Origin: Collinsella intestinalis DSM 13280
GTDB taxonomy: Bacteria; Actinomycetota; Coriobacteriia; Coriobacteriales; Coriobacteriaceae
Length of the DNA stretch: 64,000 nt
Direction: 5' to 3'
Assembly (NCBI RefSeq): GCF_000156175.1
Contig: NZ_GG692710.1
Coordinates: 651,961-715,960 of the forward strand
Below the pieces are notes generated by a model, which saw only the letters and a list, made by a program, of their open reading frames with translations, had not been told where the DNA came from and made no database searches. This document shows positions 19,171-23,544 of the stretch, piece by piece. Within the stretch, counting starts at the first letter, position 1. Each line of letters begins with the position of its first letter. Both the position numbers and the translations under genes were made by a program.

Positions 19171-20082
19171 ATGCGTTGCCTCATCATCCACAACCCCGCC
19201 TCCGGCCCCCGCTCAGACGAGATTTTCGACTTCGCGCGCGCTCTGTCCGAGGCCGGCGATGAGGTATGCCTGCGCTTCATCGGCGATGGCATGGAGCCTC
19301 ATCAGGCCGCGGAGGACGTAAGCGCGTTCGACCGCGTCGTGGTCTCCGGTGGGGACGGCACCGTGTCCAACGTGCTCGACCATATCCGCGATAGCCACGT
19401 CCCCACGCTCGTCTTTCCCTCCGGAACCGCGAACCTGTTCTTCAACAACATCGGCAACGCGCCCGAACCCGCCGCGCTGGCCAAGGCCTGCCGCGAGGGC
19501 CGTACCAAGACGGCCGACATGGGAGAGCTGTTCTGGAAGGCGGAAGACGGCAGCGTCCAGCGCCACGGTTTCATCATCATCGCGGGCACCGGCTTCGATG
19601 CCGACATCATGCACAAGGCCGAGCCCGCCAAGGGAGACATGGGCGAAATCGCCTACTTCCTCTCGGCGCTCGCCAACCCCGCCCCCACCGTCGCGCACTT
19701 CACCATCGAGCACGACGGGGAGGTCGACGAGCTCGACGGCATCGGCTGCATGGTGGGCAACACCTCACTCATCCAAAACGATATCAACCTGTTCCCCGAT
19801 TGCCGCATGGACGACGGGTTCATCGATATCGCCGTGATCCAGCCCGCCAAAACCGTCGAGCTGCTCCCCACCCTGCTTGCCGGCGTCCTCGATCCCGCAG
19901 GCAAGGGCCTGGGTCGGCCGCAGTTCACCCTCTTCCAAGCCAAGGAGGCGCGCATCACCTGCACGCCCTCCCTCGGCATGGAATTCGACGGGGAGCTCAT
20001 ACACAACAACACCGGCGAGTTCGGCGCCCGCGTCCTTCCCGCCTGCCTCGACCTCATCGTCGACGACTTCGCCAAGCTCTAG
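19171..20082 (+). CDS. Diacylglycerol-kinase-family lipid kinase (YegS/DgkB-like)
   Basis: 303 residues. N-terminal RCLIIHNPASGPRSDEI and VVVSGGDGTVSNVLDHI carry the nucleotide-binding GGDGT motif of the diacylglycerol/sphingoid-base kinase family, followed by VFPSGTANLFFNNIG. C-terminal beta-sandwich with DDGFIDIAVI and MEFDGEL is typical. The enzyme phosphorylates a membrane lipid, feeding phosphatidate or undecaprenyl-like pools. I chose ATG 19171 (AGGGAACTC upstream); ATG 19153 is a possible alternative. It precedes the tryptophan-transporter leader, which has its own promoter. Confidence 0.9.
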   Translation: MRCLIIHNPASGPRSDEIFDFARALSEAGDEVCLRFIGDGMEPHQAAEDVSAFDRVVVSGGDGTVSNVLDHIRDSHVPTLVFPSGTANLFFNNIGNAPEPAALAKACREGRTKTADMGELFWKAEDGSVQRHGFIIIAGTGFDADIMHKAEPAKGDMGEIAYFLSALANPAPTVAHFTIEHDGEVDELDGIGCMVGNTSLIQNDINLFPDCRMDDGFIDIAVIQPAKTVELLPTLLAGVLDPAGKGLGRPQFTLFQAKEARITCTPSLGMEFDGELIHNNTGEFGARVLPACLDLIVDDFAKL

Positions 20083-20128: not shown

Positions 20129-20156
20129 TTGCACCCGCACTGCACTGTGCTATAGT
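20129..20156 (+). promoter_or_regulatory. Sigma-70-type promoter of the tryptophan transporter operon
   Basis: -35 TTGCAC (20129-20134), 16-base spacer, -10 TATAGT (20151-20156). It places the transcription start near 20163, about 40 bases before the leader peptide. Confidence 0.65.
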
Positions 20157-20203
20157 CCCTAACCAACGTTTCGACCTCCGATAGCGCGAAAGGAGCCATC
20201 ATC

Positions 20204-20275
20204 ATGAAGCAGATCACGTTCGTCTCCCTCAACAACTGGTGGTGGCATGACGCGTCTTCGGCCGGTCGACGGTGA
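20204..20275 (+). CDS. Tryptophan leader peptide (attenuator, three Trp codons)
   Basis: A 23-residue frame reading MKQITFVSLNNWWWHDASS then AGRR and TGA. It has a strong ribosome site (AAAGGAG, 20191-20197) and three consecutive TGG codons at residues 12-14. It lies between a good promoter (20129-20156) and an intrinsic terminator (20310-20338). The next gene, 72 bases past that terminator, is a TrpP-like ECF substrate component. This is the layout of classical trp attenuation: ribosome stalling at Trp codons when charged tRNA-Trp is scarce prevents terminator formation. A CCGGTC at 20262-20267 is complementary to GACCGG in the terminator and could be part of the alternative fold. Confidence 0.85.
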   Translation: MKQITFVSLNNWWWHDASSAGRR

Positions 20276-20309
20276 GTCCTCATACCCATATACCATCCAG
20301 GTAACACGA

Positions 20310-20338
20310 GGCCTCCGGTTTGACCGGGGGCCTTTTTT
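20310..20338 (+). terminator. Attenuator terminator between Trp leader and transporter genes
   Basis: GGCCTCCGGT (20310-20319) pairs with ACCGGGGGCC (20323-20332), 10 bp with one G-U pair and a three-base loop, followed by six T. The position 34 bases after the leader stop fits a regulated terminator. Confidence 0.88.
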
Positions 20339-20409
20339 CATGCCGAGGCCCCGTCCACCGCCTTTGCCCCCCTGAACGCAAGCGCCCCAGTTCGCGAAAG
20401 GAACCTCCC

Positions 20410-20985
20410 ATGACCACCCCGTTCCAACCCAGTGGCCGACCCCGCACCCTCGCCATCGACGAGCGACGCGGCCTCGACATCCAAAGCCTCGTCTTGCTTG
20501 CCGTCCTGCTCGCCGCCGGCTTCATCCTCAACTTCACGGCAGGCAAGGCCATCTCCGCGGTCTCCGGCGGAGCCATCGCCCCCGAATTCATCGTCTCCGC
20601 CTTCTGCCTCGCGATCCTGGTCATTCGCCCCACCATCCCGCAGGCCCTCGTGATCGGACTCATCTCGGCCGCGGTCATCCAAATCACCACCAGCTCCCCC
20701 GGCATCGACTTCGTCGCCGAAGGCATCGCCGCCGTCGCCATGGCGTCGATCGTGAACGTCGGCGCACGCACGCCCGCGCGCAACCTGGTGCCCGTGGTCG
20801 GCACCTTCATCACCACATTCCTCTCCGGAATGATCTTCATGGTGGTCAAGATGGCGCTCATGGGCTTCGCCGGCGAGCTGGCCGCCGTGATGACTCCGGT
20901 CGTAACGGTCACGGCGGTCTTCAACGCGATTCTCGTCGGTGCGCTCTATCAGCCCGTCAAACAATCGCTCGGTCTGAACGAGTGA
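20410..20985 (+). CDS. trpP: ECF transporter S component, tryptophan-specific (TrpP-like)
   Basis: 191 residues with about five or six membrane spans. The order of blocks AISAVSGGAIAPEFIVSAFC, VIRPTIPQALVIGLISA, TTSSPGIDFVAE, VPVVGTFITTFLSGMIF and VVTVTAVFNAILVGALYQPV (each a landmark) matches the TrpP family of tryptophan importers, including the SPG-like loop. ATG 20410 follows GAAAGGAACC. The gene lies directly downstream of a leader peptide with three Trp codons and an attenuator and upstream of ECF ATPase and T-component genes. Specificity for tryptophan is inferred from both the family and the leader; the two lines agree. Confidence 0.88.
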   Translation: MTTPFQPSGRPRTLAIDERRGLDIQSLVLLAVLLAAGFILNFTAGKAISAVSGGAIAPEFIVSAFCLAILVIRPTIPQALVIGLISAAVIQITTSSPGIDFVAEGIAAVAMASIVNVGARTPARNLVPVVGTFITTFLSGMIFMVVKMALMGFAGELAAVMTPVVTVTAVFNAILVGALYQPVKQSLGLNE

Positions 20986-21004
20986 CGCAGCCGCATCCGT
21001 CCCA

Positions 21005-21026
21005 CTCGGCATCTCCAGATGCCGAG
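21005..21026 (+). other. Intercistronic hairpin before the ECF ATPase gene
   Basis: CTCGGCAT (21005-21012) and ATGCCGAG (21019-21026) form a perfect 8-bp stem with a six-base loop, ending 7 bases before the ribosome site of the ATPase gene. It may tune translation or message decay; no T-tract follows. Confidence 0.45.
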
Positions 21027-21044
21027 CACCGAGAAAGGAGCCCT

Positions 21045-22805
21045 ATGAGCGCGATCATCGAAATGGAGTGCGTCTCGTTCTCCTACGGCACCGCCGCTGA
21101 CGGCGCCTACGCCCTCAAAGACATCGACCTCTCCGTCGAAGAGGGCACCTTCGTCGGCCTGATCGGCCCCTCGGGTGCCGGAAAGTCGACGCTGGCGAGC
21201 GCCATCACCGGCGCCATCCCCCACCATTATCGGGGCCGCCTGTTTGGCTCCACACTCGTGGCGGGACTCGACACCTGCGAGGCGTCCCTCACCGATATAG
21301 CCAAGGTCGCCGGCTCGGTCCTCCAAGACATCGACGCTCAGATGGTGGCCTCCGTCGTGGAGGACGAGCTGTTGTTCGGCCTTGAGAACTTCGGCATCGA
21401 CCACCGCGAGATCGAGGGGCGCATCGCATCGGCCCTCGACGCCGTGGGCATCGCCGACCTGCGCCATCGCGAAATCGCGACGCTTTCCGGCGGACAAAAG
21501 CAAAAGGTCGCCATCGCCGCCATCCTCGCCATGACGCCCCGCGTCATCGTCATGGACGAACCCACCTCCGCGCTCGATCCCGCGAGCGCGCGCGATGTGT
21601 TCGAGGTACTCCGACGCGCCAAGGAGCTGACGGGGATGACCGTCATCCTCATCGAGCAGACGGTCGCGCTGCTCGCCGAGTATTGCGACCGCGTCGTCGT
21701 GATCGATCAGGGCCGCATCGCACTCGACGGTACGCCGACCGACGTTTTCTCCCACGGGGAGACCCTGCGAGCCATCGGCGTCGACACCCCGAGAACCGTC
21801 CGCATCTCCAACAGCCTCGCCGAAGCCGGGCTCGCGCCAAACGACTCCCCCGCACTCACGCTCGACGGCGCCGAATCCCTCGTCGCGGGCATCCTCGCCC
21901 CCGGGCTATCCAAGAGTTCGCCCATCGTGCCCTGCGCCCTGGGCGATGGACCGAATGCGCGCAACACGACCGATGAGCGTCCGATCATCGTCGACGTCGC
22001 CGGAGCAGCGTATTCCTACGGAACGGGACAGGCGGGCATCGAGGGAATCGACCTCACCGTGCGCGCCGGCGAGATTCTCGCCGTCGTCGGCCAGAACGGC
22101 GCCGGCAAAACGACCTTTACCAAATTGCTGAACGGCCTGATCAAGCCAAGCGCCGGCGTGGTGCGCATCGCCGGGCTCGACACCCGCACGACACCGGTGA
22201 GCGCGCTCGCATCGCACGCCGCGACCCTCTTCCAAAATCCGGACCGCCAGCTATGCCGCAATACCGTCGTCGAGGAAATCTCCTTCGGCCTCGAGCTCCA
22301 AGGCGCACCCGCCGATGCCGCACGGGAAAGGGCACGTCGCGTCGCCGCCACCTTCGGCCTGCCCGAAAACGCCTCCCCCTTCAACCTCTCCCGCGGCCAA
22401 CGCCAGATGGTCGCGCTCGCAAGCGTCGTGGCCCTCGAACCCGAGCTCATCATCCTTGATGAGCCCACGAGCGGGCTTGACTACCGCGAATGCATGACCG
22501 TCATGGAGACGGTCCGCCAGCGCGCACTCGACGGCGCCGCCGTCGTCATGGTCTGCCACGACATGGAAGTCGTGAGCGATTTCGCCGACACCCTCGCCGT
22601 CATGACGGAGGGCAGGCTGATCGAAGTCGGCCCCTCCCGCGAGGTATTCGCAAACGACGCGCTGCTCGCCCATGCGCGCATCGCAGCGCCGTGCGTGCCC
22701 GCGCTCGGCAAGCGCCTGGCAGCCCGTTTCCACTCCTCGTTCGCCCACATAACCGAAGTCGCCGACCTCGTCGCCCTCGTCAAGGAGCTGAAGGCCCATG
22801 CTTGA
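21045..22805 (+). CDS. ECF transporter double ATPase (EcfA1-EcfA2 fusion)
   Basis: 586 residues with two complete ABC ATPase halves. The first has Walker A GPSGAGKST, signature LSGGQKQKVAIAAIL and Walker B VIVMDEPTSALDPAS. The second has GQNGAGKTT, LSRGQRQMVALASVV and LIILDEPTSGLD. The two halves are joined by a linker of about 90 residues that is Pro/Ser/Asp-rich. It energises the S/T membrane complex. In many bacteria these are two genes; fusion is a known variant. The ribosome site is GAAAGGAG, and the stop overlaps the T-component start by 8 bases, so the stoichiometry is translationally coupled. Confidence 0.95.
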   Translation: MSAIIEMECVSFSYGTAADGAYALKDIDLSVEEGTFVGLIGPSGAGKSTLASAITGAIPHHYRGRLFGSTLVAGLDTCEASLTDIAKVAGSVLQDIDAQMVASVVEDELLFGLENFGIDHREIEGRIASALDAVGIADLRHREIATLSGGQKQKVAIAAILAMTPRVIVMDEPTSALDPASARDVFEVLRRAKELTGMTVILIEQTVALLAEYCDRVVVIDQGRIALDGTPTDVFSHGETLRAIGVDTPRTVRISNSLAEAGLAPNDSPALTLDGAESLVAGILAPGLSKSSPIVPCALGDGPNARNTTDERPIIVDVAGAAYSYGTGQAGIEGIDLTVRAGEILAVVGQNGAGKTTFTKLLNGLIKPSAGVVRIAGLDTRTTPVSALASHAATLFQNPDRQLCRNTVVEEISFGLELQGAPADAARERARRVAATFGLPENASPFNLSRGQRQMVALASVVALEPELIILDEPTSGLDYRECMTVMETVRQRALDGAAVVMVCHDMEVVSDFADTLAVMTEGRLIEVGPSREVFANDALLAHARIAAPCVPALGKRLAARFHSSFAHITEVADLVALVKELKAHA

Positions 22806-23544
22806 TGTCATCGATTACACTCCCGGGAAGAGCCTGCTGCACCGTCTCAACCCCGTGACGAAGCTCGCGATCGCAGCGGCGATCATCACCGCGACCTTTC
22901 TCACGCAAAGCCCCTTCGCCCTCACGGCCCTGCTCGCACTCACCCTGGCAATCGGCGCCTACGCCGGCGTGGCAAGACGCCTGACGGGCCTGCTCAAAGT
23001 GCTCCTGCCCATCGTGGTCGTCATGTTCACCCTACAGGTCGCGTTCACTCCCACGGGCGAGCATATCGTCGTATTCGCGACCGTCGATGGCGTGATCGGC
23101 GGGCTGCGCGCATGCCTTCGCCTGGTCGGCGTCGCCTTGCCGCTCGTGCTCATGCTCAGCGTGACGAGACTCACGGACCTGGCCAATGCCTGCGTGGAGG
23201 TCCTCCACGTCCCCTATCGCTACGCGTTCACGTTCACCACGGCCCTTCGATTCGTCCCGGTGTTCACGCGCGAGATGAACGCCATCATGGAGGCTCAAAC
23301 CGCGCGCGGCGTGCACTTTGACACCGGCAACCCGTTCAAGAAACTCGCCCTCATGATTCCCGTGTGCATCCCGCTGCTCGTAACCTCGGTGCAAAAGACC
23401 GACGCGACGGCGCTCGCGGCCGAGCAGCGCGGGTTTTACCTGCGCACGCGCGCCAGCTCCTATCGCCGCTATCCGATGACCGCCACAGACATCGCCGTCC
23501 TTGGCTGCTGCCTCGCACTCGTGGCGATCGGGTTCACCCTGTAG
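22798..23544 (+). CDS. ecfT: ECF transporter T component
   Basis: 248 residues, integral membrane scaffold of the ECF importer. It starts MLDVIDYTPGKSLLHRLNPVTKLAI, where the segment around LNPVTKL is the family hallmark. About five membrane spans follow, then the two Ala-Arg-Gly-type coupling motifs in TARGVHFD and AEQRGFYLRTRAS (AxxRG), which contact the two ATPase domains. The gene overlaps the ATPase gene by 8 bases. With the S component it completes a dedicated three-gene ECF importer, so this T component probably serves tryptophan and is not necessarily shared by other S components. Confidence 0.95.
   Translation: MLDVIDYTPGKSLLHRLNPVTKLAIAAAIITATFLTQSPFALTALLALTLAIGAYAGVARRLTGLLKVLLPIVVVMFTLQVAFTPTGEHIVVFATVDGVIGGLRACLRLVGVALPLVLMLSVTRLTDLANACVEVLHVPYRYAFTFTTALRFVPVFTREMNAIMEAQTARGVHFDTGNPFKKLALMIPVCIPLLVTSVQKTDATALAAEQRGFYLRTRASSYRRYPMTATDIAVLGCCLALVAIGFTL

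Follow-up and report, generated by a model that had tools for sequence, protein, structure and literature searches.

A leader with three adjacent tryptophan codons as the probable attenuator of a predicted ECF tryptophan importer in Collinsella intestinalis and its relatives

In Bacillus subtilis, trpP (yhaG) is controlled by TRAP, a tryptophan (Trp)-binding protein that acts on the mRNA. For the trp operons of Corynebacterium and Streptomyces, and for trpS of Streptomyces, attenuators have been described whose leaders contain two or three UGG codons (PMC1262725). Trp-specific T-boxes precede genes of NSS and ABC transporters (PMC2494555), and in Streptococcus suis a T-box is reported on trpX, the gene of a Trp transporter (PMC9382623). 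Here we analyze a stretch of 64,000 nucleotides from Collinsella intestinalis DSM 13280 (contig NZ_GG692710.1, positions 651,961 to 715,960; "the window" throughout), in which a short leader open reading frame (ORF) with three adjacent Trp codons and an intrinsic terminator precede the genes of a transporter of the energy-coupling factor (ECF) type. We propose, with a probability of about 0.86, that this region acts as a ribosome-mediated transcription attenuator controlling a dedicated ECF Trp importer in a Collinsella-type auxotroph. Both Trp attenuators and Trp transporters under RNA control have precedents, and it is their combination on an ECF Trp importer that appears to be new; in the literature searched, whose coverage left out most subscription journals, no such importer was described with a leader-peptide attenuator. 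In Rfam, nothing in the window matched at the gathering score, and a permissive threshold gave chance-level matches only.

With the actinobacterial trp attenuators (PMC1262725) the locus shares a short leader ORF with UGG codons, a GC-rich terminator followed by a U-tract, and a competing antiterminator; however, its target is an ECF importer rather than a biosynthetic operon or a tRNA ligase gene, and it resides in a genome without trpA and trpB. With the T-box-controlled Trp transporters (PMC2494555, PMC9382623) it would have in common the signal, namely the charging of tRNA-Trp, and the target, Trp uptake, but the window carries a presumably translated leader instead of a tRNA-binding RNA, and a transporter of another type. 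Like the group I ECF vitamin transporters (ThiT, RibU), the importer comprises ATPases, EcfT and an S component that has a six-helix fold and carries AxxxA in helix 1, whereas its predicted cargo is an amino acid. As in the TRAP-regulated trpP of B. subtilis, Trp would control a transporter of the TrpP family type at the level of RNA, but the window uses a leader peptide and a terminator, and its S component is a sub-threshold TrpP match. The preliminary description of this locus had called such use of a trp leader unusual, a reasonable remark that nevertheless calls for softening, since neither trpA nor trpB nor trpB2 is present in the genome and RNA-controlled Trp transporters are known.

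The leader ORF comprises 23 codons, from the ATG at 20204 to the TGA at 20273-20275; it had been recognized before, and it proves to have a Shine-Dalgarno sequence as well as adjacent UGG codons and conservation among orthologs. Trp codons make up 0.25% of the codons in neighbouring genes, and the probability of three in a row (WWW) in a random ORF of equal length is ~3e-7. Because of this low value and the conservation of the leader in orthologs, the Trp-rich leader is, judging from composition and comparison, not due to chance. In the first set of orthologous loci, all 37 readable ones, including that of Atopobium minutum, have at least two adjacent Trp codons in the leader, and the peptides mostly follow the pattern ..NNWWWRDA..GRR/GQR, one locus (L012) having WW. 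A covariance model built from the window's leader and 17 relatives was applied to 297 genomes from the order, and at E<=0.01 it matched 173 of them, belonging to 48 of the 107 genera; 121 matches in Coriobacteriales reached E<1e-7, and some of the weak matches are terminators that merely resemble the leader. Among the further loci with S, ATPase and EcfT genes behind a match, WWW leaders are found in several families, the exceptions being L119 (WW) and, as judged by eye, L083 (W-A-W). The Trp codons and the terminator, which the preliminary description had proposed to look for in orthologous leaders, are thus both kept. Weaker second matches of the covariance model (e.g. L109-L114, L117, L118, L121 and L123-L129) were rejected as look-alike terminators with no Trp leader. 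A short-ORF scan of trp biosynthesis stretches from the few relatives with trpA (L145, L146, L151-L154) revealed no WWW leader, the operon starts perhaps lying outside these stretches.

The terminator behind the leader has a stem of 12 pairs (8 of them G-C) at 20308-20334 with a 3-nt loop, and six T residues at 20333-20338; the 10-bp stem with T6 reported earlier at 20310-20338 was right in substance. Three terminator-like sites were detected on both strands of a 701-base region, against 0.3 expected from shuffles, and this one is the sole candidate on the + strand. It covaries over 45 species, with 33 double-change cells (0 of 500 shuffles). The competing antiterminator and the terminator are mutually exclusive: CCGGUCRACGGUGAGUCC, i.e. 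the final leader codons (GRR) and the stop codon, can pair with GGCCUCCGGUUUGACCGG. If the Trp codons and their surroundings are masked and the 3' arm of the terminator is left incomplete, folding of the RNA predicts this long antiterminator in the window and in nearly all species. Over the 45 species 87.6% of its cells are paired, compared to at most 64% when the pairing is slid by 1-3 columns; its energy is -21.6 kcal/mol versus -13.4 for shuffled segments, and the pairs formed within a species were surpassed by only 11 of 2000 cross-species permutations. In a third pairing, the protector hairpin, the last Trp codon and the Arg and Asp codons pair with bases after the stop codon, and none of 5000 permutations was as good as the matching within species. 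Covariation among orthologs, suggested earlier as a check, is thus evident for the terminator; the antiterminator is conserved, and the protector hairpin is well matched in most relatives. A 1:2 hairpin proposed by RNAalifold was discarded, as its own pairing was no better than cross-species pairing and weaker than that of shuffles.

In 44 of 45 species the leader Gly is encoded by GGT, yet in neighbouring genes this codon specifies 8% of the Gly residues, which points to selection acting on the leader RNA. These data bear on the possibility that the ORF and the terminator represent an ordinary small protein gene, and that leaky termination or a second promoter accounts for transcription of the transporter. 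Small genes do indeed commonly look like this, as a short ORF with a terminator behind it, and the promoter consensus scan scored none; nonetheless, conservation tracks the RNA pairing and not the protein, as indicated by the variable N-terminus, the GGT codon and the conserved antiterminator, and across families the Trp codons are kept before Trp genes only. We therefore find the small-gene explanation hardly credible.

According to the attenuation model, at ample charged tRNA-Trp the ribosome would pass UGG-UGG-UGG, reach the stop codon and cover segment 2 (20262-20279), whereupon the terminator (20308-20338) would form and the S, EcfAA' and EcfT genes would be off. At scarce charged tRNA-Trp it would stall on the Trp codons, leaving segment 2 free to pair with 20310-20327, and transcription would continue into the importer genes. 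Given the usual ribosome footprints, we infer that the geometry fits the classical model, as a stall at 20237-20245 would free segment 2 and a ribosome at the stop codon would cover it. The leaders of orthologs, the covarying terminator and the conserved antiterminator support the earlier suggestion that an ECF Trp importer may be under ribosome-mediated attenuation. A leader of this kind might alternatively function as a TnaC-like arrest peptide that senses free Trp and not the charging of tRNA-Trp, and the segment NNWWWRDA, which surrounds the Trp residues of the peptide, does recur in Collinsella. However, the sign would be wrong, as Trp-induced arrest would turn import on under plentiful Trp; between families the peptide is variable except for the Trp codons and the codons involved in RNA pairings; and the terminator is intrinsic, conserved and covarying, whereas E. 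coli tna uses Rho. Such an arrest peptide is accordingly very unlikely.

The proposal that the tRNA-sensing attenuator governs Trp uptake also draws on evidence independent of the window's leader. At eight loci in Eggerthellaceae (L175-L179, L181-L183; the name of this family, labelled f2, is inferred from its T-box-bearing genera) and at L184, a locus from a different family, a T-box and no WWW leader lies ahead of the orthologous S gene. These elements qualify as T-boxes by their T-box sequence (core GGTGGYACCGC), stem I and specifier codon, and the specifier is UGG (Trp) in all nine; ATPase and EcfT genes are located downstream of the S gene (for L184, as seen in the longer stretch L138). 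The T-box of L183 matches RF00230 with 56 bits (E 1e-11), below the curated cut-off of 93, and most of these T-boxes would escape Rfam. Furthermore, in family f7 (L106, L120) a single WWW leader heads trpB2-S-A-T, and a WWW leader with a terminator precedes trpB2 at L115, L116, L122, L143 and L147, the last of which is from a Collinsella. TrpB2 converts indole to Trp. Owing to the UGG T-boxes on orthologous operons and the WWW leaders on trpB2, the Trp specificity claimed in the preliminary description finds support beyond the sub-threshold Pfam match, and the cargo of the ECF importer is predicted to be tryptophan.

It could be argued that the attenuator senses Trp-tRNA but the importer carries a related compound, such as indole, a Trp-containing peptide or several aromatic amino acids. 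This would agree with the sub-threshold match to Pfam TrpP and with the presence, in several relatives, of two S genes in tandem behind one leader, by which more than one cargo is possible. On the other hand, the genome has no trpB or trpB2 to turn indole into Trp, and a T-box with the UGG specifier also controls the orthologous operon. We regard a related cargo as improbable, and tryptophan remains the cargo that we predict.

The source genome (1.81 Mb, 3 contigs) contains a single S gene of the importer's family and a single leader of the matching kind. It lacks trpA, and a search for trpB and trpB2 gave no match in it, although the ordinary trpB of relatives was recovered by the identical search; trpA is missing from 33 of the 35 genomes sampled in the genus. 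With regard to other possible routes of Trp import, a search limited to SNF symporters detected none in the source genome. Because trpA, trpB and trpB2 are missing, the organism presumably depends on Trp import as an apparent Trp auxotroph, and import is therefore the visible step still open to control.

Several observations must be held against the attenuator as proposed. The antiterminator shows little covariation beyond conservation, and in most species the terminator gives the more stable fold once it has been transcribed in full; therefore the switching must be kinetic. The protector hairpin, though well matched in most relatives, is weak in the window (-6.1 kcal/mol), and the permutation tests of RNA pairing ignore shared ancestry. 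A scan with the sigma-70 consensus found no promoter ahead of the leader. The promoter indicated in the preliminary description stands in part: a candidate extended -10 is present at 20148-20156 and 28 of the 45 orthologs aligned likewise have TATAGT ahead of the leader, but the scan is negative and the candidate -35 (TTGCAC, 20129-20134) is poor. Finally, the S component scores 24.6 bits against Pfam TrpP (PF17099), below the gathering score of 27.2, and has no match in NCBIfam; among its relatives, 25 of 37 S proteins match Pfam TrpP at E<=1e-3. Because of the sub-threshold score, the earlier designation of the S component as TrpP-like is retained on the grounds of Pfam resemblance, and its membership in the TrpP family is unsupported.

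The genes of the locus are arranged in the order lipid-kinase-like gene (ending at 20082, 5' of the leader ORF), leader ORF, terminator, S component, fused EcfA-EcfA' and EcfT, so that the double ATPase and EcfT lie behind the S gene as described previously (Table 1). Together the S, EcfA/EcfA' and EcfT genes (20410-23544) constitute a dedicated module of the group I ECF type. The AlphaFold model of the S component exhibits six helices, with a predicted local distance difference test score (pLDDT) of 88, and its best neighbours in the PDB are ThiT, 5edl and RibU (Foldseek probability ~1, with weak E-values). In helix 1, A31 and A35 are invariant and form an AxxxA motif, which in S components binds EcfT (PMC11109136). 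Among 396 genomes sampled in the phylum, S genes of the importer's family are confined to this order. A tandem pair of different S genes behind one leader is found at L080, L082, L084, L088 and L091, and in the Collinsella genomes G012, G015, G016, G021, G022, G024, G029 and G031; the second S type is 47-51% identical to that of the window, and operons with one S gene may have the first or the second type. A single fused gene encodes EcfA and EcfA' in the window and its relatives, whereas they are separate genes in the T-box operons of the Eggerthellaceae orthologs (L175-L183).

Table 1. Positions of the leader, RNA and transporter features in the window
Feature	Position	Strand	Basis
Candidate promoter: -35 TTGCAC, 16-nt spacer, extended -10 TGCTATAGT	20129-20156	+	sequence
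Shine-Dalgarno AAGGAG of the leader ORF	20190-20195	+	sequence
Leader ORF MKQITFVSLNNWWWHDASSAGRR	20204-20275	+	sequence; peptides conserved in orthologs
Three adjacent Trp codons (proposed stall site; start of the left arm of the protector hairpin)	20237-20245	+	
Segment 2 CCGGTCGACGGTGAGTCC: end of the leader ORF with its stop codon, plus 4 nt; forms the left antiterminator arm	20262-20279	+	folding, pairing tests
Right arm of the protector hairpin, post-stop bases pairing with the last Trp/His/Asp codons	20280-20288	+	within-species matching
Intrinsic terminator	20308-20338	+	terminator scan, folding, covariation
Antiterminator partner of segment 2: terminator 5' arm, loop and first part of the 3' arm	20310-20327	+	
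ECF S component, TrpP-like, predicted Trp-specific	20410-20985	+	Pfam, alignment, structure model
Fused double ECF ATPase EcfA-EcfA' (two ABC_tran stretches)	21045-22805	+	domain search
EcfT, transmembrane coupling protein, CbiQ family	22798-23544	+	domain search

On a broader scale, it seems likely that Coriobacteriales possess a regulon of Trp acquisition, in which the UGG leader attenuator and the Trp T-box interchange before one ECF importer, the attenuator is also used on trpB2 and an NSS symporter, and in the many lineages without trp synthesis the attenuator controls import only. Throughout the order, a textbook switch of biosynthesis would be employed in apparent auxotrophs to govern uptake. 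The analysis provides a substrate prediction, tryptophan, for an ECF importer that is widespread among common gut bacteria and only weakly annotated. Moreover, with orthologous operons that have either the leader attenuator or the Trp T-box, nature itself allows two RNA sensors with one signal and one target to be compared, and these operons make the Trp supply of Collinsella-type gut bacteria directly testable.

The UGG leader and the T-box would be unrelated sensors of tRNA-Trp that have been swapped on one target. At yet another locus (L137), a leader of the form ..SSRAWWWRSF with a terminator precedes the gene of a sodium symporter, which was identified by eye as NSS-type and is possibly another attenuated Trp importer.

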